A stretch of 64,000 bases of DNA from positions 124,001 through 188,000 of the forward strand of contig NZ_NFLN01000002.1 in NCBI RefSeq assembly GCF_002160955.1, given 5' to 3'. Every line of letters begins with the position of its first letter. Within the stretch, counting starts at the first letter, position 1. Below the pieces are notes generated by a model. It made no database searches. It was given only the letters and a program-made list of their open reading frames with translations, and was not told the DNA's origin. Origin of the DNA: Gemmiger sp. An120. Lineage in GTDB: Bacteria > Bacillota > Clostridia > Oscillospirales > Ruminococcaceae. Shown one piece after another: positions 45,464-58,534 of the stretch. The position numbers were made by a program, and so were the translations under genes.

Positions 45464-48397
45464 ATGGAACAATCCCTGGAACAACGGATGGCATCCCGCA
45501 TACCCTGGCAGTCCAGCGACCCGTCCGCTGTACTTCGCACCGGTGAGCGGGCTGCGCTGACGGTGCATCGCCGGGGCGGCAGTACTTCCGCTTTGATACA
45601 AGCCGGGCTTGAACAAAACCCGCCGGCAGCGCTGCTGCTGAACCGCCTGCTTCTTCGCCGGAATCTGCTGGACACCGATCTGACCACCGCCATTGCAGAC
45701 GCCTGCCGCCGGGAACTGGCTGCTGCCGAAACCGCCGATACTGCCGACCCTGTAACGCTGGCACCGCTGTGCGCCGCGCTGGTGATGCTGCAGCTGCGGC
45801 CAGAAGCTGTCCGGGCGCTGTCTCTTTGCGGGCGGTCAATGCCTCAGTATACGGAAGGCGGGCAGGAGTTTTCCAGGCGGCTGCTTCAGTTTCTGAATGC
45901 AGAAAACAGCCAGCCTCTGATTCTTCAGGCAGAATTGCTGAATCTGATGTACCAGTGTCTTTCCCTGGACTGGAATGAGCAGCTGCTGTACCATTACGGG
46001 GTAGAACTGCCCACTGGCGGACAGATTCCTCCGGCGCTGATCGAACTGGTGCACCGGGCAGAACAGGACTGCGCCTTTCGTTACCTGCACAACCTGTTTA
46101 CCGTTTTTGTGGATCTGCGCCCCGCTGACGTGGGGCTGAGTCCCGAGCCGTTGACGGAGCGGGCATTTGGGATCGAGAGCATTGAAATCTTTCGTGCTCT
46201 GCTATTCTGCCACAAGGTCTTTAAGCTGGAAAGTCCCTCTGAACTGGAGGGGCTGGATCGCTGGTGGACCGTCCTGCAGCGCCACCAGGAGGATGCCAAC
46301 CCTTTCTGGCAGCAGCATCGCGGCTGGTTCACCTTATACTATGTCAGCCGTCAAGCCCGTTTTGAACCGGCCCGGGTGGCCGAACTTCTGGATCAGTATC
46401 CGACACTGCCGCCCCCGCCGCCGGGTAAGCCTTATCAAAAGACCAGCCGGGTAATTCAGAATGCCATTACCGACCTGTTTTTCACCCCAGGCGATGTCCT
46501 GCTGCGCTATCTGCAATGGTGCTGTGATTACAATCCTTTCCGCTTCCGTTCCGATGAGGAGCGCACCCCGTATTCCTATCTGAATCGGCAGCTGAATCTG
46601 GATGCGGCATTCCGGTTTCAGCGCAGCCAGGGGCGTACCGCCCGGGAACTGGTATATCTGTACATGAACAGCTTCGCCCGCTGCCAGTTTGCTCTGCACC
46701 ATCTGGGTCGCATTCTTTGTGAATACCCGGAAATGCACCCCAATCAGTACGGTACCATCACGGTAGAAAACCTGTTTGAGGATTACCCCATACCTGCAAT
46801 CCTGCAGGGGCAGAATGTCTCCTGGTCCGTGCGGCCGCTGAACGTGCGGACCGGTGAATCGGGATTCCTGACCATCCCTCCGGACTGGGTCTCCGCCCGA
46901 CAGGCGCATTTCAATGCTGCCGGTCTGGATGGGACCCGGGTACGTTGTGTAGTATTCCGCCTGTCCGCAGCCAACGGCTCGGCGTATGTCAAACCTCTGT
47001 TTGACAACACCCAGGCTGAGGCTGCTCGCCAGGTCCGGCGGGAAGCCTTTGATGAGTTTTGTCTCCGTCTGCAGCAGATTGCTGATACCGGCCGGTTTGA
47101 CCCGCTTATCAATCGGGAGATTCAGCAACTGGGTATTTCTCCCTTACTGCCGCCCTACAAAATGGTTCGCATGGAACGGCTGGTGGTAGCTTGCTGCGCC
47201 TCACTGCTGGCCACCCCGGGACAGGCGCGGCATTTTGTTCTGATGCTCAGCAACCTGCACCGGGGCCGTCTGAATCGGTACCGGTTTCCCTGTCAGAACA
47301 GCCGTCATCGCATGTCCACCTATCTGGACAAACAGCTTTTCAGTGATTGCCGCAAACTCTGGCAAACCATCCGTACGCTGCGCCCTGCCTGGGACGAGCT
47401 GTTCTTTGTGTATATCAACACCCCATTCAAAATGTGTGTCTCGATGGGGGAACTGGTGCGTCTGTACGCCCCGCCAGGCAATGCTCCTATGGATCTGCGG
47501 GAACAGTATTCCCATCCGCACCCTCACTGGTTCGCCGGAACCATAACCGGCCGGCTGCCGGCGCATCGCTCTCCACTAGGGCAAGACTGCCTGATACTGC
47601 ACCCGCTGGAATTTTCGCCCGGTGCGCCTAACCATCAGGACCGGTTCCTGTACCCGATTTCCGGCCCTGCCGATGAACTGCCGCCCAGTGACAGGCTGTA
47701 TGCTTTCCGCATTAGCAAGCTGCTGCCTCGTGACCATTGTTTTGTACTGGAGGAACTGGCACTCGCTGACGACCGGCGGCGGATCTCTCCCAAGGCGGTT
47801 TACATGGAAGCGATGGGCCAGGCTGCCTGCACCGCCGCACCCCCGGAACAAGTACGCCGGGATCTGGGCCTTTTCAGCGGACCGCTTACCTGGGAAGACC
47901 GCACCGAACTGATCACCATGACTCTTCAGGCGCTCAGCCTTCGAGCAGACAGCGCCTCCGCACTGGAACAATTTCTGGCTGACCTGGGGCCCAATAATCC
48001 ATGGCCCACCGCTCAGGATACCGGCCTGGATGAATGGGTAGCTGATCTGTCCCACAGTGCTCCGTTGAACGAGCTGACACGTCTTCTGGCGCTCCACCAG
48101 GAACTGGAAACCAGCCTGCGGATTTATTTTTCTTCGGTACTCCGGGCGGTACTGCCGCTGAACCGGCTGCTGGGCGCCAGTGCCCGGGCCGGACGCAGCC
48201 TGTTGCTTGTACCCAAACAAATGGAATCGTATCTGCTGACTTTACACTTTGGTCCCGATGGTCCCCAAACCCGCGGTTTCCGCATAGGAGACTGGGAGTT
48301 GGACGGAACTGCCCCGGCAGCCGGATCTCTCACCGTTCGTGTAACGGGTTATATCCCGGAAACCGACCAGCTTGTACTCCGACCAGTGGGTGAATAA
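45464..48397 (+). CDS. Large protein of unknown family, partner of the HEPN-NACHT NTPase
   Basis: A 977-residue soluble protein that I do not recognise. Residues about 1-450 are helical and leucine-rich, like a solenoid (PAALLLNRLLLRRNLLDTDL; LLQFLNAENSQPLILQAELL). The C-terminal half has three or four beta-type units with similar wording: VRCVVFRLSAANGSAYVKPL, HWFAGTITGRL, RLYAFRISKLLPRDHCFVLE, LTVRVTGYIPETDQLVLRPV. These recall S1/OB or SH3 strands that bind nucleic acid. It has no ATPase motif. Nine bases after the NTPase gene, it is surely co-expressed and could be the sensor or a target binder. GAGGTG precedes ATG 45464 at four bases. Confidence 0.6.
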   Translation: MEQSLEQRMASRIPWQSSDPSAVLRTGERAALTVHRRGGSTSALIQAGLEQNPPAALLLNRLLLRRNLLDTDLTTAIADACRRELAAAETADTADPVTLAPLCAALVMLQLRPEAVRALSLCGRSMPQYTEGGQEFSRRLLQFLNAENSQPLILQAELLNLMYQCLSLDWNEQLLYHYGVELPTGGQIPPALIELVHRAEQDCAFRYLHNLFTVFVDLRPADVGLSPEPLTERAFGIESIEIFRALLFCHKVFKLESPSELEGLDRWWTVLQRHQEDANPFWQQHRGWFTLYYVSRQARFEPARVAELLDQYPTLPPPPPGKPYQKTSRVIQNAITDLFFTPGDVLLRYLQWCCDYNPFRFRSDEERTPYSYLNRQLNLDAAFRFQRSQGRTARELVYLYMNSFARCQFALHHLGRILCEYPEMHPNQYGTITVENLFEDYPIPAILQGQNVSWSVRPLNVRTGESGFLTIPPDWVSARQAHFNAAGLDGTRVRCVVFRLSAANGSAYVKPLFDNTQAEAARQVRREAFDEFCLRLQQIADTGRFDPLINREIQQLGISPLLPPYKMVRMERLVVACCASLLATPGQARHFVLMLSNLHRGRLNRYRFPCQNSRHRMSTYLDKQLFSDCRKLWQTIRTLRPAWDELFFVYINTPFKMCVSMGELVRLYAPPGNAPMDLREQYSHPHPHWFAGTITGRLPAHRSPLGQDCLILHPLEFSPGAPNHQDRFLYPISGPADELPPSDRLYAFRISKLLPRDHCFVLEELALADDRRRISPKAVYMEAMGQAACTAAPPEQVRRDLGLFSGPLTWEDRTELITMTLQALSLRADSASALEQFLADLGPNNPWPTAQDTGLDEWVADLSHSAPLNELTRLLALHQELETSLRIYFSSVLRAVLPLNRLLGASARAGRSLLLVPKQMESYLLTLHFGPDGPQTRGFRIGDWELDGTAPAAGSLTVRVTGYIPETDQLVLRPVGE

Positions 48398-48405
48398 GGG
48401 AAAGT

Positions 48406-48440
48406 AAGCGGCCGTGTCCATTCGGATGCGGCCGCTTTTC
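48406..48440 (+). terminator. Terminator of the HEPN-NACHT operon
   Basis: AAGCGGCCG pairs with CGGCCGCTT, followed by TTCC. It ends the two-gene unit. Confidence 0.7.
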
Positions 48441-48716
48441 CTTGATTTTCGATTTTCGATTAGCACACACGGTAGATGTTGCGCAGAAACCAATGCACTA
48501 TACTATAATAGGCCCTCAGGACGAGAGCAGCAGCTCTTTACGACACACAAAATTTCTCTACCGGTTCAGGGCTGACACTGTCGTTTTATGACGGAATACT
48601 GGCGTCTTATGCGGTTTGCCGGGAGAGAATATTGCAATGCTCCAACCCTCGTGATATATTCAAAAAACCCCGTCCACAAGCCGGGATTTTTACTCAGTAA
48701 AACGAGGAGGATGTCT

Positions 48717-49028
48717 ATGAAACGGGTTGCGGCAATGGTTGTTCTGGCAGTTCTGCTATTGGCAGGTTGTGCCGGCGAGTTGATGACCTGGCAGGAGCAG
48801 TATGATCTGGGAATGCGGTACCTGAACGAAAGCAACTACGAAGAGGCTATTCTTGCCTTTACCCAGGCAATCGAAATTGATCCCAAGAACGTCGAAGGCT
48901 ATTTGGGCCGTGCTGAGGCATGTGTATCGGCAAGGCAGACAAAAAGAGGGACATGCGTCAGCAAATACCATGCCGCCTTACAGGGGCTGGTGGATACTCG
49001 GCTGATAAAAATTTTAAAAGAAGCCTGA
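48717..49028 (+). CDS. Short TPR lipoprotein, possibly truncated
   Basis: A 103-residue lipoprotein: signal peptide with lipobox LLAGC, then a single clear TPR unit (QYDLGMRYLNESNYEEAILA, FTQAIEIDPKNVEGYLGRAE). After ACVSARQTKRG the sequence no longer looks like TPR, which suggests a frameshift or 3' loss; related gut lipoproteins are longer. AGGAGG is six bases ahead of ATG 48717. A possible promoter (TATAAT 48504-48509) lies upstream. It sits between the HEPN-NACHT operon and a HEAT-like gene. Confidence 0.6.
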   Translation: MKRVAAMVVLAVLLLAGCAGELMTWQEQYDLGMRYLNESNYEEAILAFTQAIEIDPKNVEGYLGRAEACVSARQTKRGTCVSKYHAALQGLVDTRLIKILKEA

Positions 49029-49044
49029 ATAGGAGTGATTGTTC

Positions 49045-49563
49045 TTGAGTCTAACGGAGATTTTCGGGGATAAAAGCATTAAAAAAATCCAGGCCCGGGC
49101 CATGATTGTGGAAGGGATTATAAGCGGCGAGCTGACAATTGAAGAAATAGAAGCCGCATGTCACCATTTAAAAGATACTAAAATTGCCACTGTTCTGGAG
49201 GCTATTGAGGAAATTTCCAATAAGAAGCTCATGAATTTAAGCGTAGATTACCTTGCGTTTTCCAAGAAATATATTTCGAGCAAGGATAATTCCTGCAAAC
49301 GCGAATCATCACGGATAGTTGGCAATTTAGCTGCCCAGTACCCGCAGGCTGTTCAGGATTGTATTCCCACATTGCTTGGTAACGCGACCGATGAGGGGAC
49401 AGTGGTTCGCTGGAGTAGCGCCTATGCACTGTCCAGGATCATTGTGTTGGAAGACTACAAAAACACCGCTCTGTATGAAACTTTGGTTTCTATCTGCGAT
49501 ACCGAACAGGATAACGGTGTAAAGAACCAATATGTAAAGGCGTTAAAGAAAATCAAACGCTAA
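49045..49563 (+). CDS. HEAT-like repeat protein
   Basis: A 172-residue helical protein with HEAT-like helix pairs (TIEEIEAACHHLKDTKIATV, LEAIEEISNKKLM, then TVVRWSSAYALSRIIVLEDY). Start at TTG 49045, seven bases after AGGAGTG; the next upstream TTG is too close to the site. HEAT proteins serve as protein-binding scaffolds. It precedes a zinc-ribbon gene by 50 bases; both may belong to the same unit. Confidence 0.55.
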   Translation: MSLTEIFGDKSIKKIQARAMIVEGIISGELTIEEIEAACHHLKDTKIATVLEAIEEISNKKLMNLSVDYLAFSKKYISSKDNSCKRESSRIVGNLAAQYPQAVQDCIPTLLGNATDEGTVVRWSSAYALSRIIVLEDYKNTALYETLVSICDTEQDNGVKNQYVKALKKIKR

Positions 49564-49612
49564 GTCAGTCCATTTTGCTTCCGCCATTCATTTTCCTGCC
49601 AAAGGAGAGCCC

Positions 49613-51220
49613 ATGCATCACCCTGTGTCGAAAATATCGTCAGGGCAAATTGTTTGCCCGAAACATCGAATCCCCTTAACTGAGCTAAGACGGCTGCGGT
49701 TGAATGACGGAAGGGAGATTCTGGTTTCTCCATGCCCGAAATGCGGCTGTCTGTACACAAATGATTATGCTCCTTTGAATGTACCGAATGGGGAATTCCA
49801 TGTCGGGGACAAAGTCGTTCTTTGGTCCGGGCTGCGCGTGCAGATTCAAAAGAACGGAAAGCCCAAAATAAAGCCAGTCAAACCCGTCCTTCAGAATAAG
49901 CCCGTCAACATTATTCGAAGCAAAAAAGAGCTTTCTGCATTTCGCGACATGACTTCCGCTAAAAACATACTGTACCTGAGCAATAAACGTATGTATCGGG
50001 TCATCGGATATTTTGTAGCGGAAAACCAGCAATTCTACTGTCTTCCAGATCGTCTTGATATAGAAGGCCTGGGGAATGCAGATTTGTCGCAAATCAAAGT
50101 GAACGACCCGCACAACTATCTGAATACCACAAAGTCCGGCCGGACCTACCTGAAAGCCAGGAAAGAGTGGGAGGCACGGGCGAAAAGATTGGCCGAAGAA
50201 CAGGCAAAAGCAAAAGAAGCCCGTTTGAAAAAGCAGAAAGAACTGATCCAAAACGCTTACCCAGGCCTTTATTACACCCTGCCATTGCTGGATGAGTCGC
50301 ACGAGGAATACTGCCCGTTTTGCCACACCAAACTGGAGCATGTGCGGGCGGCTAATATTGTCCTTTACGCGCAAAGGAAACCGCAAAAGAGCATCTATTT
50401 TATCGTTGCGGGATGCAGTCGCTGCAACCTGCCGCTTGCAACCCATAAAGATCTGGAACGGATACGGGCGCACACCAAGGGTAGAATCGTAAAAATCCTG
50501 TATGCGTCCCGTTTTTCTCAGGCAAGTGCGGTGATTGCGGAAGGGCAGAAAAAGGTCATGAAGATTCCAGCCTATATTCCGCCCGCAACAGAGGCACAAA
50601 GCATCCTCCCATTTGCTCCGAAAACATGGGCGCGGGAGCTCCCTGACTTAAGCCGCATTTCCCAGTCCCGGAAAGTTCTTGTATTTGCAAGGAAGTGTAC
50701 ATGCGCCACCTGCCGGGAAACCTTCAAGCAGGACACGATTGTGGCCAGAACCGCAACCGTATTTACCGCAAGCGGTATTCCGGTAGAAATCAATGTGCAA
50801 TTTTGCATGGGGTGCGGACAGTATTTTCTTTCGCTCCGCTCTTTCTATGCGTATAAAAAGATGTACGGGCCGCTGGACTTCCAGTTCATTCTGGATGAAG
50901 TATCCTCGGAAGTGCTGGATTGGGATAAATTCGCAGCCGACAGTGTTCTCAGCCAAAACGGATACTCCGTAAAGGCCGGAGTCTCTGCTGCACAAAGGCA
51001 ACGTGTTTTGGCTTATCTGCTGGATAACCACATAGCCGAAAAGCACGAGATCATTGCACTGCTCAACCAGTTTATCCAGCTGCAGAAGAACCGCTTGCCG
51101 GAAGCCTGTGAAAGATGGAAAGAAGACCTGGCGTTCGTAAATCAGTATAAGATCGATGAACAGGAAAAGGCTGGATTCAAGAAATTGGTTCAGGGTGGTC
51201 GTCTGACGCAAAAAGAGTAA
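49613..51220 (+). CDS. Multi-zinc-ribbon protein of unknown function
   Basis: A 535-residue soluble protein with at least three zinc pairs: CPKH and CPKC at the N-terminus, CPFC and CSRC in the middle, CATC and CMGC near residue 370-410. A charged helix (about 180-215, EWEARAKRLAEEQAKAKEAR) lies between. The C-terminal 100 residues (VLSQNGYSVKAGVSAAQRQR, VLAYLLDNHIAEKHEIIALL) form a domain I have seen at the end of other zinc-ribbon proteins in defence-like neighbourhoods, where it ends with a LxKxxxxxAxxxWxxDxxFV-like helix. Function not known. AAAGGAG precedes the ATG. Confidence 0.6.
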   Translation: MHHPVSKISSGQIVCPKHRIPLTELRRLRLNDGREILVSPCPKCGCLYTNDYAPLNVPNGEFHVGDKVVLWSGLRVQIQKNGKPKIKPVKPVLQNKPVNIIRSKKELSAFRDMTSAKNILYLSNKRMYRVIGYFVAENQQFYCLPDRLDIEGLGNADLSQIKVNDPHNYLNTTKSGRTYLKARKEWEARAKRLAEEQAKAKEARLKKQKELIQNAYPGLYYTLPLLDESHEEYCPFCHTKLEHVRAANIVLYAQRKPQKSIYFIVAGCSRCNLPLATHKDLERIRAHTKGRIVKILYASRFSQASAVIAEGQKKVMKIPAYIPPATEAQSILPFAPKTWARELPDLSRISQSRKVLVFARKCTCATCRETFKQDTIVARTATVFTASGIPVEINVQFCMGCGQYFLSLRSFYAYKKMYGPLDFQFILDEVSSEVLDWDKFAADSVLSQNGYSVKAGVSAAQRQRVLAYLLDNHIAEKHEIIALLNQFIQLQKNRLPEACERWKEDLAFVNQYKIDEQEKAGFKKLVQGGRLTQKE

Positions 51221-51225
51221 TGTAA

Positions 51226-51261
51226 AAGAACTCCCACGGGTAAAGCCCTGTGGGAGTTCTT
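51226..51261 (+). terminator. Terminator after the zinc-ribbon gene
   Basis: AAGAACTCCCACGGG pairs with CCCTGTGGGAGTTCTT (one G-T pair), followed by GCTGTTGTT. It ends just before the IS200 left end. Confidence 0.7.
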
Positions 51262-51329
51262 GCTGTTGTTAGCTTTAGCGCAAAGGCAACCCCCGGCTTT
51301 GCCGGGGAGTGTAAAGAAATTATATAGTG

Positions 51330-51399
51330 AAAAAGACCTGCTGGTAGAATAAAGTTGCGGTCGGCCAACTGCAACAATAAAAAACCAGGAGGTCTTTTT
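51330..51399 (+). promoter_or_regulatory. Hairpin that hides the tnpA ribosome binding site
   Basis: AAAAAGACCTGCTGG (51330-51344) pairs with CCAGGAGGTCTTTTT (51385-51399) at 14 of 15 positions; the second arm contains the AGGAGGT ribosome binding site of tnpA. A second hairpin (GTTGC/GCAAC) fills the loop. This matches the known translational repression of IS200 transposases. Confidence 0.75.
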
Positions 51400-51401
51400 A
51401 C

Positions 51402-51878
51402 ATGAAAGAAAAGGATATAGCGAGCCTGCAGCACACAACATGGAGATGCCAGTATCATGTAGTGTTTGCACCGAAATGCCGTCGGATGGCAATATACGGG
51501 CAAATCAAAAAAGATATTGGGCAAATACTAAGAACGTTGTGCGATCAAAAAGGGGTAGAGATCATCGAGGCGCAAGCGTGCCCAGACCACATCCACATGC
51601 TGCTGAGTATCCCTCCGAAGTATAGTGTATCACAAATCATGGGGTATCTCAAAGGGAAAAGCAGCCTGATGATTTTCGACAGACACGCGAATCTGAAATG
51701 CAAATATGGGGACAGGCATTTCTGGGCAAGAGGATACTACGTTGATACGGTGGGGCGAAACAAAAGGCAGATACAGGAATACATCAAAAGGCAGTTGGAT
51801 GAGGACCAGATTGCGGACCAGATGAGCCTGAAAGCGTTTATTGACCCGTTTACAGGTAGCAAGAATATCAAGGCATAA
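51402..51878 (+). CDS. tnpA: IS200-family Y1 transposase TnpA
   Basis: A 158-residue single-strand transposase. The HUH motif lies in ACPDHIHMLLSIPP (His-x-His at about residues 65-67), strand TTWRCQYHVVFAPKCRR is at the N-terminus, and the catalytic tyrosine sits in ARGYYVDTVGRNK near residue 111-112. Length matches the family (about 150). TnpA cuts and joins the hairpin ends as single-stranded DNA. The gene appears intact and could also mobilise the short element at 30431-30683. Confidence 0.95.
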   Translation: MKEKDIASLQHTTWRCQYHVVFAPKCRRMAIYGQIKKDIGQILRTLCDQKGVEIIEAQACPDHIHMLLSIPPKYSVSQIMGYLKGKSSLMIFDRHANLKCKYGDRHFWARGYYVDTVGRNKRQIQEYIKRQLDEDQIADQMSLKAFIDPFTGSKNIKA

Positions 51879-52079
51879 GAAAGCCCCTTAAGGGGCCGCC
51901 ATGAGTCAGCAATGCAGTTGGCCGACCCATTCGTGGCCCCTTGAGGGGCGTTGTCTGTATTATGCCCTTCCAGGGCTTACTCAAGCCCCCGGCTTAGCCG
52001 GGGGTCCTGACTTTTATATTTGCTTCATGGGAAGATTGCAGCCCATACTCAAAGTCAAAAAGCCCCGATCCCCGCCAGA

Positions 52080-52108
52080 TTGAACCCAGCCTCCATCCAT
52101 GCTATAAT
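52080..52108 (+). promoter_or_regulatory. Promoter of the selenium operon
   Basis: TTGAAC (52080-52085), 17 bases, TATAAT (52103-52108). It stands 55 bases before the DUF3343 gene and just beyond the IS200 right end, so the insertion left it intact. Confidence 0.75.
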
Positions 52109-52162
52109 AGGTAAAATCGTTCTACTTTCAAAACTACAACGAGACGGCAGGGAGGATGGCCC

Positions 52163-52399
52163 ATGATACCCAAGCAGGACAGGCTGGTGATTACCTTTTA
52201 TACCACCACCGATGCCATGGCCATGGAGCATCTGTGCCGGGAACAGAAGGCCGACGGCCGGATGATTCCAGTACCCCGCAGCATCTCTGCCGGCTGCGGG
52301 CTGGCCTGGAGCGCCCCTCCCGAGAGCGAAAAAGCGCTGCGTGCCTTACTGGATGCGGAACACATCCGGTTTCAAGGCGTGTATCGCTGCCTGGTGTAA
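52163..52399 (+). CDS. DUF3343 protein, putative Se/S carrier
   Basis: A 78-residue protein of the DUF3343 type (LVITFYTTTDAMAMEHLCRE; GRMIPVPRSISAGCGLAWSA). The conserved Cys in SAGCGLAW is thought to carry sulfur or selenium and work with TusA/YedF and cysteine-desulfurase proteins. GGGAGG lies ahead of the ATG. First gene of the selenium operon, 11 bases before the desulfurase gene. Confidence 0.8.
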   Translation: MIPKQDRLVITFYTTTDAMAMEHLCREQKADGRMIPVPRSISAGCGLAWSAPPESEKALRALLDAEHIRFQGVYRCLV

Positions 52400-52410
52400 G
52401 AGGTGGCGAG

Positions 52411-53550
52411 ATGATTTATCTGGACAATGCCGCCACCACCCGGCATAAACCGGACTGTGTGGTGGAAGCGGTAACCCGCGCCCTGTGCAGCCTGGGCAAC
52501 CCGGGCCGTGGGGCACACGAGGGATCCCTGGATGCAGACCGTGTGGTCTTTGATACCCGACTGGCTCTGGCAGAACTGTTTCACGCCGAGGGCCCGGAGC
52601 GGATCGCTTTTACGGCCAACGCCACGGAAGCCCTGAACATAGCCATTAAAGGGATACTGCAGCCGGGGGACCATGTCATCACCACTGCTATGGAGCACAA
52701 TTCGGTTCTGCGCCCACTCTATGAAATGGAAGAGCGGGGAGCGGAACTGACCATCCTTCCGGCAGACCGGCAGGGCCGTCTTCATCTGGAGGCATTCGAG
52801 GCAGCCATACGCCCCAATACCCGGGCCATCGTCTCTACTCATGGCTCCAACCTTACCGGAAACCTGGTGGACATCGGACAGGTGGGGCAGCTGGCCCGGC
52901 GTCATGGTCTGCTGCTGGTGGCGGACGCTTCTCAGACGGCAGGTGTATTTCCCATCGATGTCCAGCAGATGCAGATCGACATTCTCTGCTTCACCGGTCA
53001 CAAAAGTCTGCTGGGACCCCAGGGCACCGGCGGCCTGTATGTGCGGCCGGGCGTAACCGTGCGGCCGCTGCTCAGCGGGGGCAGCGGGATACAGACCTAC
53101 CGTCGGCACCACCCGCCCGAGATGCCCACCGCCCTGGAAGCCGGCACCCTCAACGCCCACGGCCTGGCGGGCCTGGGGGCCGCGGTGGACTACATCCGAC
53201 AGGTGGGACTGGAAACCATCCGGGAACAGGAAATGGACCGGATGTGGGAGTTTTACCGTCGTGTCCGGGCAATCCCGGGGATAACGGTGTACGGAGATTT
53301 TTCTCAGCGTCTCCGTTGTCCCATTGTGGCCCTGAACGTGCGGGATTACGATTCCAGCCAGGTCAGTGATGCGCTGTCTTCTCACTATGGCATCGCTACC
53401 CGGCCGGGGGCTCACTGTGCTCCTTTGATGCACCAGGCCCTGGGCACAGTGGAGCAGGGAGCCGTGCGGTTCAGCTTTTCCCACTTCAACACCCGCGAGG
53501 AAATCGAAACGGCCGTTTCCGCACTGGCGGAACTGGCACAGGAGGAATAA
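52411..53550 (+). CDS. Class V aminotransferase / cysteine desulfurase (selenium-linked)
   Basis: A 379-residue PLP enzyme. It starts IYLDNAATTRHKP, has SNLTG and ADASQTAG, the PLP lysine in FTGHKSLLG (Lys198), and a C-terminal Cys in RPGAHCAP that can carry persulfide or perselenide. In this group, next to DUF3343, YedF and SelD, the enzyme likely frees sulfur or selenium from cysteine or selenocysteine for the molybdenum hydroxylase cofactor. ATG 52411 has GAGGTGG ahead; the longer frame from 52156 overlaps the DUF3343 gene. Confidence 0.9.
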   Translation: MIYLDNAATTRHKPDCVVEAVTRALCSLGNPGRGAHEGSLDADRVVFDTRLALAELFHAEGPERIAFTANATEALNIAIKGILQPGDHVITTAMEHNSVLRPLYEMEERGAELTILPADRQGRLHLEAFEAAIRPNTRAIVSTHGSNLTGNLVDIGQVGQLARRHGLLLVADASQTAGVFPIDVQQMQIDILCFTGHKSLLGPQGTGGLYVRPGVTVRPLLSGGSGIQTYRRHHPPEMPTALEAGTLNAHGLAGLGAAVDYIRQVGLETIREQEMDRMWEFYRRVRAIPGITVYGDFSQRLRCPIVALNVRDYDSSQVSDALSSHYGIATRPGAHCAPLMHQALGTVEQGAVRFSFSHFNTREEIETAVSALAELAQEE

Positions 53551-53553
53551 ATC

Positions 53554-54165
53554 ATGGAACGAACAATTGATTGCCGGGGCATGGCCTGCCCTTTGCCGGT
53601 AGTCAACGCAAAAAAGGCATCGGAAGAACTGCAGGCCGGGGATATTCTGACGGTTCTGGTGGATAACGAGGTAGCGGTGCAGAACCTGCAGCGCTTTGCT
53701 TCTCACAAGGGATATGTCTCCACCGGTGAGAAGAAGAGCGAAACGGAATACACGGTAGTAATGACCATTACCGGCGCTGGAACGGCTGCTCCGGAAGAGG
53801 CAATTGCCTGCCACCAGGATACCCGTCGGAAAGGGATGCTGGTAGTGCTGTCGGCCAACACTATGGGCAATGGTGACCCCAAGCTGGGCACCGCCTTGAT
53901 GAAGGCCTTTGTATTTGCTCTCACCAAGCAGGATCAGCTGCCCGATACGATTCTGTGCTACAACAGCGGCGCATATCTGACCTGCGAGGGTTCCGAATCG
54001 CTGGAAGACCTGCAGCTGCTGGAATCGGAAGGGGTCACAATCCTGACCTGCGGCACCTGCCTGGACTTCTACGGTCTGCGGGAGAAGGTGGCGGTGGGCG
54101 GTGTCACCAATATGTATGAGATCGTGGAGAGAATGGAAGCCGCCAGCCAGATCATCCGGCCGTAA
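53554..54165 (+). CDS. yedF: YedF, TusA-DsrE sulfurtransferase-like selenium protein
   Basis: A 203-residue protein in two parts. Residues 1-75 are a TusA-like domain with the CPxP motif (RGMACPLPVVNAKK, Cys12), and residues 90-203 a DsrE-like domain (GMLVVLSANTMGNGDPKLG; LTCGTCLDFYGL). YedF is always found beside SelD in selenium-dependent molybdenum hydroxylase loci and probably carries the selenium. Three bases after the desulfurase gene. Confidence 0.9.
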   Translation: MERTIDCRGMACPLPVVNAKKASEELQAGDILTVLVDNEVAVQNLQRFASHKGYVSTGEKKSETEYTVVMTITGAGTAAPEEAIACHQDTRRKGMLVVLSANTMGNGDPKLGTALMKAFVFALTKQDQLPDTILCYNSGAYLTCEGSESLEDLQLLESEGVTILTCGTCLDFYGLREKVAVGGVTNMYEIVERMEAASQIIRP

Positions 54166-54179
54166 CAGGGGAGAACAGG

Positions 54180-55217
54180 ATGGAAACACAGGTAAAACTC
54201 ACCAAACTGGCCACCTGCGCCGGCTGCGGCGCCAAGATGGGTGCCGGCACTCTGACCAAAATGCTGGAGGGCTTCAAGACCCATTCGGATCCCCGGCTGA
54301 TCGTGGGCTATGATAAGAGCGATGACGCCAGCGTCTATGTGCTGAGCGAGGATCAGGCCCTGATCCAGACCACCGACTTTTTCCCGCCCATTGTGGACGA
54401 TCCTTACCTATACGGCAAAATCGCCGCCACCAATGCCCTCAGTGATGTGTACGCCATGGGGGGCGAGCCGAAGCTGGCTCTGAACATCCTGTGCGCGGCT
54501 GAGTCCATGGAGGACAAGACCATCCGGGAGATCCTGCGGGGCGGCTACGACGCAGCCTACGAAGCCGGGGCCATCATCACCGGCGGCCACACCATCAAGG
54601 GAACTGAACCCTTCTATGGCCTGGCGGTATCGGGGTTTGTGCACCCCGACAAGGTTCTGACCAATTCCGGTGCCCGGCCGGGAGATGTGCTGTTGCTGAC
54701 AAAACCGCTGGGTGTAGGGATCCTGACCACCGCCGCCAAGGCCGGGATGGCCGAGGGCGCCGTGATGGACCGGATCTACCGGCAGATGGCAACTCTGAAC
54801 AAGACCGCCCGGGATATCATGGTGCAGTACCCGGTTCACAGCTGCACCGACGTTACCGGCTTCGGCCTGCTGGGCCACAGTTATGAGATGGCCCAGGGCA
54901 GCGGCTGCACCCTGCACATTCAGGCGGATCAGGTACCGTATCATCCGGAAGCTCTGGAATTCGCCGACATGGGCCTGGTTCCTGACGGCGCCTACCGGAA
55001 CCGTGACTACGCCCAGCCGGGGGTCAGGGTGTGCCGGGAAATCCCCCTGGCCCTGGAGGATATCTTCTACGATCCGCAGACCAGCGGCGGTTTGCTGATC
55101 GCTCTCCCGGCGGAAGCTGCCGAAGCGTGCCTGGCCGAACTGCAAAAACAGATTCCGCAGGCTGCCCGGATTGGCTATGTGACCGAGCTGCAGGATGCAG
55201 CCATTAAACTGGAGTAA
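54180..55217 (+). CDS. selD: Selenide, water dikinase SelD
   Basis: A 345-residue enzyme that makes selenophosphate from selenide and ATP. The N-terminal glycine-rich loop reads TCAGCGAKMG, with Cys16 and Lys19 at the catalytic positions; it is a cysteine form, without in-frame TGA for selenocysteine. The ATP-binding DDASVY, TTDFFPP and TDVTGFGLLGH motifs are intact. No selA or selB is in the window, so selenophosphate here probably serves the molybdenum hydroxylase pathway. Confidence 0.95.
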   Translation: METQVKLTKLATCAGCGAKMGAGTLTKMLEGFKTHSDPRLIVGYDKSDDASVYVLSEDQALIQTTDFFPPIVDDPYLYGKIAATNALSDVYAMGGEPKLALNILCAAESMEDKTIREILRGGYDAAYEAGAIITGGHTIKGTEPFYGLAVSGFVHPDKVLTNSGARPGDVLLLTKPLGVGILTTAAKAGMAEGAVMDRIYRQMATLNKTARDIMVQYPVHSCTDVTGFGLLGHSYEMAQGSGCTLHIQADQVPYHPEALEFADMGLVPDGAYRNRDYAQPGVRVCREIPLALEDIFYDPQTSGGLLIALPAEAAEACLAELQKQIPQAARIGYVTELQDAAIKLE

Positions 55218-55220
55218 ATC

Positions 55221-56036
55221 ATGAAGAATTTGATTGTTGTCCGGGGCGGGGGAGATCTGGCCACCGGCACCATTTATAAACTGCACCAATGCGGGTTTCC
55301 TGTGCTGGTTCTGGAGATCGCCGCGCCCTCCGCTATCCGGCGGAACGTGGCTTTCTCGGAAGCTGTATACCAGGGCACCCAACAGGTGGAAAATGTGACC
55401 TGCCGTTTTGCCGACTCGCTGGAGGAGGCTGTCCGCCTGCTGGAAAACGGGGAACTGCCCCTGCTGGTGGACCCGGAAGGGAAATCCATTGAAGCGCTGA
55501 AACCCATGGCCGTGGTGGACGCCATTCTGGCCAAGCGGAACCTAGGCACGCATAAGGAGATGGCTCCCATCACGGTAGCCCTGGGCCCTGGTTTCACCGC
55601 CGGGGTGGACGTGGATGCCGTGGTGGAAACCCAGCGTGGTCACAACCTGGGACGGGTGCTGTGGCAGGGAGCTGCCGCCCCGAACACCGGCGTTCCCGGC
55701 ATCATTGCGGGTTATGGCAAGGAACGGGTAATACACAGTCCTGCGGCGGGAGTGCTGCGAAATGTCTGCAAAATCACCAATACGGTCCGTAAGGGCCAGA
55801 CGATTGCCGTGGTGGAGAATGAAGCCGGCGATGTACCGGTGGAGGCAACCCTGGACGGTCTGCTGCGCGGCCTGATCCGGGACGGTTACCCGGTAACCCA
55901 GGGATTCAAGATCGCGGACATTGACCCCCGCATAGGGGAGTACCAGAACTGCTTTACCATCTCGGATAAAGCCCGGTGCATTGCCGGGGGCGTGGTGGAA
56001 GCCGTACTGCATCTGAAAGGTGAGAGAGGCATATGA
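55221..56036 (+). CDS. yqeB: YqeB, EF2563-family selenium-dependent molybdenum hydroxylase protein
   Basis: A 271-residue protein (LIVVRGGGDLATGTIYKLHQ; ITVALGPGFTAGVDVDAVVE; PAAGVLRNVCKITNTVRKGQ) of the EF2563/YqeB family found in selenium-dependent molybdenum hydroxylase operons. Its biochemical role is not established. Overlaps the YqeC-XdhC gene as ATGA, three bases after SelD. Confidence 0.9.
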   Translation: MKNLIVVRGGGDLATGTIYKLHQCGFPVLVLEIAAPSAIRRNVAFSEAVYQGTQQVENVTCRFADSLEEAVRLLENGELPLLVDPEGKSIEALKPMAVVDAILAKRNLGTHKEMAPITVALGPGFTAGVDVDAVVETQRGHNLGRVLWQGAAAPNTGVPGIIAGYGKERVIHSPAAGVLRNVCKITNTVRKGQTIAVVENEAGDVPVEATLDGLLRGLIRDGYPVTQGFKIADIDPRIGEYQNCFTISDKARCIAGGVVEAVLHLKGERGI

Positions 56037-57421
56037 TTCAGGCGGTTGTGGGGTCAGGGGGTAAGACTACCCTGATTCACCGGCTGGCCACGGAGGCCCG
56101 GGCTCAAGGGAAAAAGGTTCTGGTAACCACCACTACCCATATGCGGATCGAGCCCGACACCCTGCTGAGCGGAGAGACTGCCCCCATTCTCCAGGCGCTG
56201 GAGGAAAAGGGCTATGCCATGGCGGGTCTGCCGCTAGGGGAGAAGATCTGCGCCCTGCCGCCGGACGTGTACCGGGCCGCCTGCGCTGCCGCTGACCTGG
56301 TTCTGATCGAAGCGGACGGATCCCGGAGTCTGCCTCTGAAATTCCCCCGAGAACAGGAACCGGTGATCCCGGACAATACCGATGAAATTCTGGTGGTCTG
56401 CGGACTGAATGGCCTGGGCCGTCCGGCCCGGGAGGTTTGTCACCGGCTGGATCTGGTCACGGCCTGCCTGGGGATTTCCGAAAACACCGTCATCACCCCG
56501 GTTCATGTCCAGCGGCTCGTGACCGAGGGATACCTGAAACCGTTGCGGCAGCAGTACCCGGACAAAAAGGTGGTGCTGATGCCCCGGGACAACGGTTCGC
56601 TGTATCAGAGGGCGGTGGCCAGTCTTCTGGCTCGGGAACAGGATGTGTCGGTGCTGGATCCGGCCTGGTTTGCCCTTCAGCCCGCCCTTATCATCTGCGG
56701 CGCCGGCCATGTGGGCCGGGAGGTGGCAGACCTGGCATCCCGCCTGGATTTTGATATCCGTGTAATAGATGCTCGGCCCGAGTTGGTAACCCGGGAACGT
56801 TTTCCTGCCGCCCGGCAGCTGATCTGCGATTCCTACGATCACCTGAACGACCATCTGGAACCGGGAGCCTGTTATGTGGTAGTGACCCCGGATCATCAGG
56901 CCGATTACCAATGCGTTTCTACCATTCTGCCCACCCCCTATACCTATCTCGGGATGCTCGGCAGCAGGAGAAAGGCCGCCTCTGCCTTCCGGCAGCTGGA
57001 GGAAGCAGGCTTTTCCCGGCAACAGATTGATAGTATCCATGCACCTATCGGTCTGTCCATCGGGGCGGTAACGCCGACCGAGATTGCCTTCAGCATCATG
57101 GCGCAGATCATCCAGGTAAAGAACCAGCACCCTGTGAGTTCCGCCGACCGGAATCTTTTGGAAAGCCAGGAAAAGGGCGTTCTGTGCGTAGTCATCGAAG
57201 CACAGGGCTCGGTACCCCGGCGGGAAGGCAGCATGATGCTGGTAACCGCCAGCCAGGTACTGGGGACCATCGGCGGCGGTGAGAGCGAATACCAGGCCAT
57301 CTGCCATGCCCGGGAACACGCAGGCTTGGATATCCAGACCTACGGGCTCCACCAAAGCGCTGCCGCAGAGCCGGACACGGCCTGTGGTGGTCAGATTAAG
57401 GTATTGTTTCTGCCGGTGTAA
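56033..57421 (+). CDS. YqeC-XdhC fusion protein with swapped XdhC domains
   Basis: A 462-residue fusion. Residues 1-205 are YqeC, a P-loop protein (VGSGGKTTLIHRL, TTTTHMRIE, LVLIEADGS, PVIPDNTDEI). Residues 220-345 match the Rossmann C-domain of XdhC (ALIICGAGHVGREVADLA; YLGMLGSRRKA; PIGLSIGAVTPTEIA). Residues 365-460 match the XdhC/CoxI domain that normally comes first (VEAQGSVPRREGSMMLVTASQ; GTIGGGESEYQAI). XdhC inserts the sulfido-molybdenum cofactor into xanthine dehydrogenase-type enzymes. Fusion with YqeC and the reversed order of the two XdhC parts are unusual to me. Confidence 0.85.
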   Translation: MIQAVVGSGGKTTLIHRLATEARAQGKKVLVTTTTHMRIEPDTLLSGETAPILQALEEKGYAMAGLPLGEKICALPPDVYRAACAAADLVLIEADGSRSLPLKFPREQEPVIPDNTDEILVVCGLNGLGRPAREVCHRLDLVTACLGISENTVITPVHVQRLVTEGYLKPLRQQYPDKKVVLMPRDNGSLYQRAVASLLAREQDVSVLDPAWFALQPALIICGAGHVGREVADLASRLDFDIRVIDARPELVTRERFPAARQLICDSYDHLNDHLEPGACYVVVTPDHQADYQCVSTILPTPYTYLGMLGSRRKAASAFRQLEEAGFSRQQIDSIHAPIGLSIGAVTPTEIAFSIMAQIIQVKNQHPVSSADRNLLESQEKGVLCVVIEAQGSVPRREGSMMLVTASQVLGTIGGGESEYQAICHAREHAGLDIQTYGLHQSAAAEPDTACGGQIKVLFLPV

Positions 57422-57449
57422 TTATTCCGAGAAAACCGTCTACAGCAAA

Positions 57450-57480
57450 AAGCACCTGATTCCAAGAGGGATCAGGTGCA
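57450..57480. terminator. Hairpin after the selenium operon
   Basis: GCACCTGAT pairs with ATCAGGTGC over an 11-base loop; A-rich on the left, T-poor on the right, so weak as a plus-strand terminator. Confidence 0.5.
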
Positions 57481-57602
57481 AATTTCAGATTGGGATCCGC
57501 ACTTGCCGATGATCATCCGATAAAGGCGATCTGCAACCGACGCAGGAATACGACTGCGCAGTATCTCCATGTGGAAAACTGGACGAACAGATCTCTAAGG
57601 GA

Positions 57603-57725
57603 ATGAAACTGTTTGCGAAAAACAAACTGAAACGGGCAATCAAAGAAGTTGCCTGCGCACAGGATGATTACGCCAAAGGAATGGAACCCGATGCCTTGCT
57701 GAAAGAAGCAACGGCGAAAAGTTGA
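57603..57725 (+). CDS. Small ORF or gene remnant
   Basis: A 40-residue frame (MKLFAKNKLKRAIKEVACAQ) whose frame stays open upstream to about 57516 without a good start. No spaced ribosome binding site is present. Composition looks protein-like. Probably the tail of a lost gene; family unknown. Confidence 0.3.
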   Translation: MKLFAKNKLKRAIKEVACAQDDYAKGMEPDALLKEATAKS

Positions 57726-57742
57726 ATTTGACGGAGGATTTT

Positions 57743-58258
57743 ATGAAGATAAAGGATATTGAAACTTCAAGACTTTTATTAAGAGCATTCACAAAAGAAG
57801 ATGCTTTGTGGGCATATAGTATCTGGAACAATCCAGAGATGGGACAATATCTGCCAGATGAAGCAAAAGAAGAAATAGATGATGAATATTTGAGCATGTT
57901 AGAAGGCTTAGGCGAGGATGAGGACTGTTGTTATTTGATTCCTGTTTTTAAGAATTCCTTGGAACGGGTTGGGACATGCAGTTTCATGGTAAGTGATGAT
58001 GGAAAAGTATACGATATTGCTTATTGCGTACATAAGAATTTTTGGTGTCAAGGCTATGCAACTGAAATCGCTCAGGGATTGATAGAATATGCTCGTCGAC
58101 AAGGAGCTGAGAAAGTAACGATTTATGTGAATCAGGAAAATACCGCTTCCAATCGTGTTGCCCAGAAATGTGGCGGAAAAATTGTCAGCGAGAGCACATA
58201 TAAGAAAAGGGGAACAGATATAATCATGAAAGATTATAAATACGAAATTCTATTGTAA
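57743..58258 (+). CDS. GNAT acetyltransferase, RimJ-like
   Basis: A 171-residue protein of the ribosomal-protein acetyltransferase branch. It starts ETSRLLLRAFTKEDA, has YDIAYCVHKNFWCQGYATEI as the acetyl-CoA-binding stretch, and ends NTASNRVAQKCGGKI. GGAGG precedes ATG 57743. Base composition is clearly more AT-rich than the neighbouring selenium operon, which suggests separate ancestry. Substrate unknown. Confidence 0.85.
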   Translation: MKIKDIETSRLLLRAFTKEDALWAYSIWNNPEMGQYLPDEAKEEIDDEYLSMLEGLGEDEDCCYLIPVFKNSLERVGTCSFMVSDDGKVYDIAYCVHKNFWCQGYATEIAQGLIEYARRQGAEKVTIYVNQENTASNRVAQKCGGKIVSESTYKKRGTDIIMKDYKYEILL

Positions 58259-58401
58259 AGTATTCCATACATAAATGGAGACAAGTTATCATTTCCCAAA
58301 GAATTTCTTGCGCACTAATTTACAGAGAGAAAGTGCGCCGCTAATGACAGAAAAACGCTCCCAGGCAACCGCTGACAAAATATAAACTCTGTTAACAAGA
58401 A

Positions 58402-58442
58402 AAACTCCCGTCTGATTCCTGTCAGGAATCAGACGGGAGTTT
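58402..58442. terminator. Bidirectional terminator
   Basis: AAACTCCCGTCTGATTCC pairs with GGAATCAGACGGGAGTTT over a short loop. It serves the GNAT gene on the plus strand and the BcrAB-like operon on the minus strand. Confidence 0.85.
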
Positions 58443-58534
58443 CGTATATTCACCCGAAAATCGCCAGCATCAAATCGTTTCATTCCGCTCAAAGCCTGCA
58501 AAATCAGGAAATACGGACTATGTGGGTATGTACG

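Follow-up and report, generated by a model that had tools for sequence, protein, structure and literature searches.

Why should YqeC and XdhC, two proteins of one maturation system, be joined in a single chain, and why should the XdhC domains stand in reversed order within it? The question is raised by an open reading frame (ORF) in a 64,000-nucleotide stretch of Gemmiger sp. An120 (assembly GCF_002160955.1, contig NZ_NFLN01000002.1, positions 124,001 to 188,000 of the forward strand), hereafter the window, whose coordinates are used below. The ORF runs from 56033 to 57421 on the + strand, starts with ATG, ends with TAA and encodes 462 residues without an internal stop. An earlier note on this DNA had described it as a YqeC fused to an XdhC whose CoxI domain, normally first, stands at the C-terminus. 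We find that the chain consists of a YqeC part, an XdhC Rossmann domain and an XdhC_CoxI domain, and we think it likely that it serves a selenium-dependent molybdenum hydroxylase as a one-chain maturation factor, in which a YqeC switch would act on the XdhC part, holding the molybdenum cofactor (Moco), during selenation. The features of the fusion are the following.

56033–57421, + strand: YqeC–XdhC Rossmann–XdhC_CoxI fusion, 462 residues, the main finding
56033–56641, + strand: YqeC part, residues 1–203 (PF19842, TIGR03172, alignment and model)
56051–56071, + strand: Walker A-like motif GSGGKTT, residues 7–13
56672–57130, + strand: XdhC Rossmann domain, residues 214–366 (PF13478; fold match to 2we8, 2we7 and 3on5)
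57158–57418, + strand: XdhC_CoxI domain, C-terminal, residues 376–462 (PF02625; motifs GSVPR, IGGG..E and CGG)
57383–57385, + strand: codon TGT of Cys451 in the CGG motif

The identities of the domains are confirmed by Pfam, where all three lie above their cut-offs: YqeC (PF19842) at residues 4–139 (132.3 bits, cut-off 27.6), XdhC_C (PF13478) at residues 219–359 (142.1 bits, cut-off 29.7) and XdhC_CoxI (PF02625) at residues 376–428 (54.3 bits, cut-off 24.3). The NCBIfam model TIGR03172 for YqeC is likewise matched above its cut-off (169.4 bits against 73.05). The two NCBIfam equivalogs of XdhC are matched below theirs (NF045664, 214.9 against 350; TIGR02964, 147.6 against 161.6), each in two stretches of which the Rossmann one corresponds to the C-terminal end of the model; the fusion thus falls short of both equivalogs in its whole-protein score and departs from the domain order of the models. 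Modelled in full with AlphaFold, the chain reaches a mean predicted local distance difference test (pLDDT) value of 87.9. In the fold list obtained with this model, which tests the Rossmann part, the XdhC-type structures 2we8, 2we7 and 3on5 lead with Z-scores of 19.7–20.4, compared with 15.2 for the next family, TcdA; residues 214–365 superpose on 2we8_A over 148 residues (Z 20.4, root-mean-square deviation 2.3).

The solved chains (2we7/2we8 and 3on5) share the family and fold of the Rossmann domain and lack YqeC. Their CoxI-like stretch precedes the Rossmann domain (residues 26–106 in 2we7 and 32–82 in 3on5), as judged from CoxI alignments that are weak (8.8 and 7.6 bits, respectively), whereas the Rossmann alignments are not. 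Escherichia coli YqeB (b2875) resembles the fusion in uniting a selenium–molybdenum accessory protein with XdhC in one chain; it carries GSTPR, IGGG and CGG motifs as in XdhC, and its C-terminal part aligns with stand-alone YqeB proteins. It differs from the fusion, however, in that CoxI (residues 12–74) comes first, followed by the Rossmann domain (residues 106–247) and then YqeB, YqeC being encoded by a separate gene. Since CoxI lies ahead of the Rossmann domain in E. coli YqeB and in the solved chains, the order in the fusion is indeed reversed, with CoxI at the C-terminus as the earlier note had it. The last 95 residues do not belong to another family: the tail matches PF02625 and carries the CGG motif. 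Two genes of one maturation system are therefore fused, as claimed, and the fusion would join two maturation steps in one chain.

Surveys with the window protein took in 297 genomes at family, 395 at order, 393 at class and 398 at phylum level; the draws overlap, and each survey is limited to at most 30 loci. Among the matches listed in the four surveys, those covering the full length (1–462) come only from this genome (G000) and from G008, G236, G054 and G786. A scan of named genomes with two peptide patterns, which would miss fusions with a diverged YqeC because both patterns came from the YqeC part, returned nine full-length fusion loci and three loci with YqeC alone. The nine are from two Gemmiger, three Faecalibacterium (one of them An122), one Oscillospiraceae, two ‘Bacillota’ and one uncultured Clostridia, and four of them are identical in sequence to G008, G236, G054 and G786. 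The whole fusion is found in ten distinct genomes, this one included; the full-length frame is open in the nine others, with 53–91% identity to the window protein, the upper value being that of the nearest relative (G008). An assembly artefact or a chance frame was rejected, as the same intact frame recurs in ten genomes. Moreover, yqeB lies directly upstream in nine of the ten loci (the exception is L149), selD is present in eight (L146: a fragment at the contig end), and the Rossmann and CoxI domains are equally far apart in all ten. As regards other fusions, yqeC and mocA form a single ORF in 8 of 59 loci (L154, L170, L172, L175, L178, L179, L183 and L187), and HP2–MobA fusions are already tabulated in PMC2432076. 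The table of that paper marks HP1–XdhC, HP1–MobA and HP2–MobA fusions and has no XdhC–HP2 (YqeC) row; its text nonetheless mentions that such neighbours are fused with HP1 or HP2.

Did the reversed order arise with the fusion? On this point the earlier note did not hold, in that it presented the order as a property of the fusion: 84 unfused proteins share it. We gathered 130 distinct XdhC rows (109 from the surveys and 21 from added loci), comprising 10 fused, 84 unfused Rossmann-first and 23 canonical proteins together with 13 split pairs; these shares are not frequencies, because the rows were drawn by similarity to the permuted query with at most 30 loci per survey. Left out were two single-domain ORFs, one at L110, which coincides with L157, and one at L029, where the two halves lie in different reading frames. 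Each of the four draws, from family to phylum, contains unfused permuted XdhCs; stand-alone proteins of this kind in Clostridia (L007, L035 and L070) have the same Rossmann–CoxI order and the same motifs, often beside yqeC and yqeB, but without fusion to YqeC. A quick tree was built without bootstrap from 88 of the 130 rows, for which the unfused permuted ones were thinned to every second row. The fusions form one clade in it (Shimodaira–Hasegawa-like approximate likelihood ratio test, SH-aLRT, 98), and their nearest neighbour is an unfused permuted XdhC (support 82). Because the fusions nest among unfused permuted XdhCs, the tree indicates that YqeC joined an XdhC that was already permuted and that the order did not arise with the fusion. 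The permuted label changes six times on the tree, and well-supported branches force only one of these changes; a single origin of the permutation would be compatible with the tree despite the several changes of order.

All 13 split pairs (L174–L180, L183, L186, L190, L191, L193 and L157) have the Rossmann gene ahead of the CoxI gene on one strand, with offsets of −73 to 187 bases; the halves in L157 are parted by one stop codon. The pairs are not 13 independent cases, since some are near copies (L176 and L177) and the set falls into a few groups. They may be a step towards the permuted chain or back from it. Ahead of the Rossmann domain, the 84 unfused permuted XdhCs carry a median of 80 residues when the first Met of the ORF is taken as the start. 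In the fusion YqeC takes the place of that N-terminal part and ends about ten residues before the Rossmann domain. The nearest unfused YqeCs of the scan (L151–L153) end at about residue 203 of the fusion; they belong to a cluster Se_S_carrier–desulfurase–yedF–selD–yqeB–yqeC, and their genomes hold XdhC matches elsewhere. A second, different N-terminal partner of a Rossmann-first XdhC is seen in L097 of G893 (757–2328, + strand), where a MOSC domain (PF03473, residues 35–140) is fused ahead of the Rossmann (251–393) and CoxI (435–489) domains. We also considered the permuted order as a marker of selenium loci and rejected it, as yqeB or yqeC is found beside all three XdhC forms. Within neighbourhood stretches of 3.3–17 kb, one of the two genes lies near XdhC in 10 of 19 permuted, 6 of 13 split and 7 of 8 canonical loci of the phylum pick (40 loci; L157, picked as permuted, is counted as a split pair) and in 14 of 15 permuted loci of the family and order pick, numbers which are no frequencies since the picks are the top of similarity lists. 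Literature searches returned no paper on circular permutation in XdhC.

In the window the fusion is the last gene of a cluster that runs Se_S_carrier, cysteine desulfurase, yedF, selD, yqeB, fusion. The features upstream of the fusion are:

52080–52108, + strand: TTGAAC-17-TATAAT, a promoter-like site ahead of the cluster (10 of 12 positions match in a consensus scan)
52163–52399, + strand: putative selenium/sulfur carrier (DUF3343), 78 residues (PF11823 Se_S_carrier, 88 bits, cut-off 25)
52411–53550, + strand: cysteine desulfurase/selenocysteine lyase-like protein, 379 residues (TIGR01977, EF2568 type, 417 bits, cut-off 377)
53554–54165, + strand: YedF, TusA-like selenium metabolism protein (TIGR03527, 213 bits, cut-off 110)
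54180–55217, + strand: SelD, selenophosphate synthetase (TIGR00476, 394 bits, cut-off 125)
55221–56036, + strand: YqeB, selenium-dependent molybdenum cofactor protein (TIGR03309, 369.6 bits, cut-off 220)
56033–56036, + strand: ATGA overlap of the yqeB stop and the fusion start, read from the sequence

The ATGA overlap suggests translational coupling of yqeB and the fusion. The promoter-like site is no evidence of function; five such sites were found in 51900–57700 compared with 2.4 expected. A search of 48000–58500 against Rfam gave no match. Directly upstream of the cluster lie an IS200-type transposase gene (51402–52005) and then GC-rich hairpins, with a 535-residue ORF rich in CxxC pairs (49613–51220) upstream of the transposase; directly after the fusion gene an inverted repeat was recognized by eye at 57453–57480 and is not among the terminator-like calls.

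The selenium cofactor trait has been described in PMC2276186 and PMC2432076. Its genes, those of the selenium-dependent molybdenum hydroxylase (SDMH) trait, are present here: SelD, YqeB and YqeC in one cluster, and a molybdenum hydroxylase in the genome. The occurrence of YqeC in a genome that also holds SelD and YqeB, used to recognize the trait in PMC9312934, is also found. In this genome (completeness 99.87%), which has one YqeC, no SelB match exceeds the cut-off (10 are sub-threshold) and YbbB has no match, so that SelD seems to serve the selenium cofactor trait alone. SelD would accordingly be an orphan here, with neither a selenocysteine (SelB) nor a selenouridine (YbbB) route found, although the trait does not demand their absence. 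Two molybdenum hydroxylases were found, with a canonical XdhC on another contig about 7 kb from the second of them. Eight fusion genomes were searched for XdhC with the whole protein (four of five first-look candidates being scored in G786). In six of them (G054, G236, G786, G1406, G1407 and G1408) no XdhC-like match other than the fusion was found, while G000 and G008 each have one canonical XdhC besides, on a contig shared with another molybdenum hydroxylase. A PF02738 search of the ten fusion genomes, drafts that may hide genes, found exactly one molybdenum hydroxylase in seven (the six sole-XdhC genomes and G1410), two in G000 and three in G008. As a sole XdhC-like match meets a single hydroxylase in the six genomes, the fusion is probably the chaperone of that hydroxylase there.

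What could YqeC contribute to such a chaperone? HypB and UreG serve the maturation of metal centres; the YqeC part, as modelled, seems to resemble in fold the SIMIBI class, to which they belong together with NifH and the signal recognition particle (SRP) GTPases, without a significant sequence match. YqeC alone is modelled with a pLDDT of 93.5. The best 50 rows of the second fold aligner that we used comprise SRP, nitrogenase-Fe-protein-like, MinD/ParA, FlhF/FlhG and HypB proteins, tied at Z-scores of 9.4–10.3; the SRP/NifH/HypB-like folds are what we take to be the SIMIBI class. Lys11 and Thr12 of the Walker A-like motif are invariant in 13 aligned rows, and the column of the lysine holds Lys in all 10 fused and in 53 of 56 unfused YqeCs, two of the other three being gaps. 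The acidic E.DG motif (EADG) is also retained. EF2564 of Enterococcus faecalis, a stand-alone YqeC of the same family, has the same two motifs. Sub-threshold Pfam rows (MobB, SRP54 and cobW, E 0.019–0.12) and weak sequence rows from the PDB, the first of them a ribosomal protein, were not taken as proof. On the basis of fold and motif, YqeC would be a P-loop nucleoside triphosphatase (NTPase) of the SRP/NifH/HypB (SIMIBI)-like kind, with nucleotide recognition changed in the fused lineage. In the unfused YqeCs, N[KQ]x[DE] stands in one aligned column in 43 of 56 proteins and turns up just once elsewhere in 13,001 residues, which hints at a GTPase-like family; literature searches returned no related paper on YqeC as a GTPase.

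As for the XdhC part, the CGG cysteine is kept in 129 of the 130 permuted, canonical, split and fused rows and in nine of the ten fusions, and the window protein retains it as Cys451 together with the other XdhC motifs and an intact frame. A conserved cysteine of XdhC is described in PMC2997495, and the CGG cysteine presumably corresponds to Cys82 of Rhodobacter capsulatus XdhC. According to PMC10609526 and PMC2997495, XdhC binds Moco, shields it while a cysteine desulfurase adds sulfur and then inserts it, the R. capsulatus protein serving a sulfurated cofactor. In the following scheme we build on the observed domains and their order, the gene context, the single clade of the fusions, the kept motifs and the sole copies, and we infer Moco binding, nucleotide binding, the selenium chemistry and the order of the steps. 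A stand-alone permuted XdhC would have come first and, in one lineage, have been joined to the end of yqeC in a selD–yqeB cluster, dropping the N-terminal part (median of about 80 residues) of unfused permuted XdhCs. SelD and the selenium carriers would supply selenophosphate or selenide, so that selenium would replace sulfur in the cofactor step of this cluster. The XdhC part would hold Moco with Cys451 near the cofactor, and nucleotide binding or hydrolysis by YqeC would drive or gate cofactor loading, selenation or hand-over to the hydroxylase, together with YqeB. Nucleotide-gated loading or hand-over is the step of this mechanism with the least support.

Several observations weigh against the one-chain maturation factor as we picture it. 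Foldseek finds nothing for YqeC at E ≤ 0.001, the best value being 0.0015, and its top rows mix the nitrogenase Fe protein and HypB with thymidylate, uridine–cytidine and guanylate kinases. N[KQ]x[DE] occurs in none of the 10 fused YqeCs, and the nucleotide switch may thus be altered or dead in the fused lineage; the motif is also absent from the unfused sisters L151–L153, from L012 and from E. coli YqeC. The fused YqeC as a GTPase is accordingly unsupported by this base motif. Both molybdenum hydroxylases of this genome fall below every NCBIfam cut-off that they match, that of the selenium-dependent xanthine dehydrogenase TIGR03311 included, and in the fusion genome G1411 the PF02738 search returned no hydroxylase at all. 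The G008 fusion (L004/L142) is the sole exception to the conserved cysteine, with CGG Cys changed to Arg and the next Gly to Asp. In three comparisons, changed codons are more frequent in CoxI than in YqeC: silent and changed codons number 29/6 in YqeC, 38/16 in Rossmann and 20/17 in CoxI against G008, 60/29, 41/32 and 24/21 against L150, and 57/45, 48/46 and 21/30 against L143. Finally, in Clostridioides difficile, as reported in PMC11448449, loss of yqeC by itself left growth on purines normal, although yqeB alone complemented the double mutant only in part; the yqeC result speaks against YqeC being essential everywhere.

We may wonder whether these facts are better explained otherwise. The joining could be an expression convenience, neighbouring operon genes having merged while their halves work independently, with NTPase and chaperone uncoupled. 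Such a merger would need little, the same genes lying close together in the family and order (yqeC–yqeB–xdhC, xdhC–yqeC–yqeB) and yqeC fusing readily, as it does with mocA. Yet the fusion is whole in ten genomes with constant Rossmann–CoxI spacing, it is the only XdhC-like match in most of the genomes searched, and the partners of YqeC, MocA and XdhC, are both Moco-handling proteins; we hold this explanation to be unlikely. Rather less credit goes to the idea that the XdhC/CoxI half is a decaying passenger in the genus, where YqeC would still work and the canonical XdhC elsewhere would do the chaperoning. It would fit the canonical XdhC on the contig of another molybdenum hydroxylase in G000 and G008, the lost cysteine of the G008 fusion and the faster CoxI codons between these two genomes. 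The window protein, however, keeps Cys451, its other motifs and its frame, and fast CoxI change alone is no sign of decay because it is also seen against L150 and L143, in whose genomes the fusion is the only XdhC-like match. That the fusion itself invented the permuted order, YqeC being set beside the Rossmann half and CoxI moved to the end, might be read from the reversal relative to E. coli YqeB and, by the weak CoxI alignments, to the solved chains; with so many unfused proteins of the same order and the fusions nested among them, we regard it as most improbable.

We therefore retain the one-chain maturation factor as the likely explanation. The YqeC–MocA, YqeC–XdhC and E. coli YqeB–XdhC fusions would fit one physical complex at the cofactor. 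A more detailed proposal, which we put forward tentatively and think somewhat doubtful as a whole, is that a YqeC switch of the HypB/NifH/SRP class acts directly on XdhC, the fusion being the covalent form of this pair (accepting Moco, gating selenation and handing over the cofactor), and that the Rossmann-first XdhC arose via a split-gene stage still found in relatives of the same phylum, which would have left its front end free to acquire partners, YqeC and MOSC among them.

With its permuted and split forms, XdhC lends itself to the study of how circular permutation proceeds within a family of chaperones. A natural YqeC–XdhC chain that is the sole XdhC-like match in six of the eight genomes searched suggests an action of YqeC at the cofactor while XdhC holds it. 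The fusion would allow the binding of Moco, the use of nucleotide and the transfer of selenium to be tested together on a single protein, and it bears on how selenium enters the cofactor of molybdenum hydroxylases.

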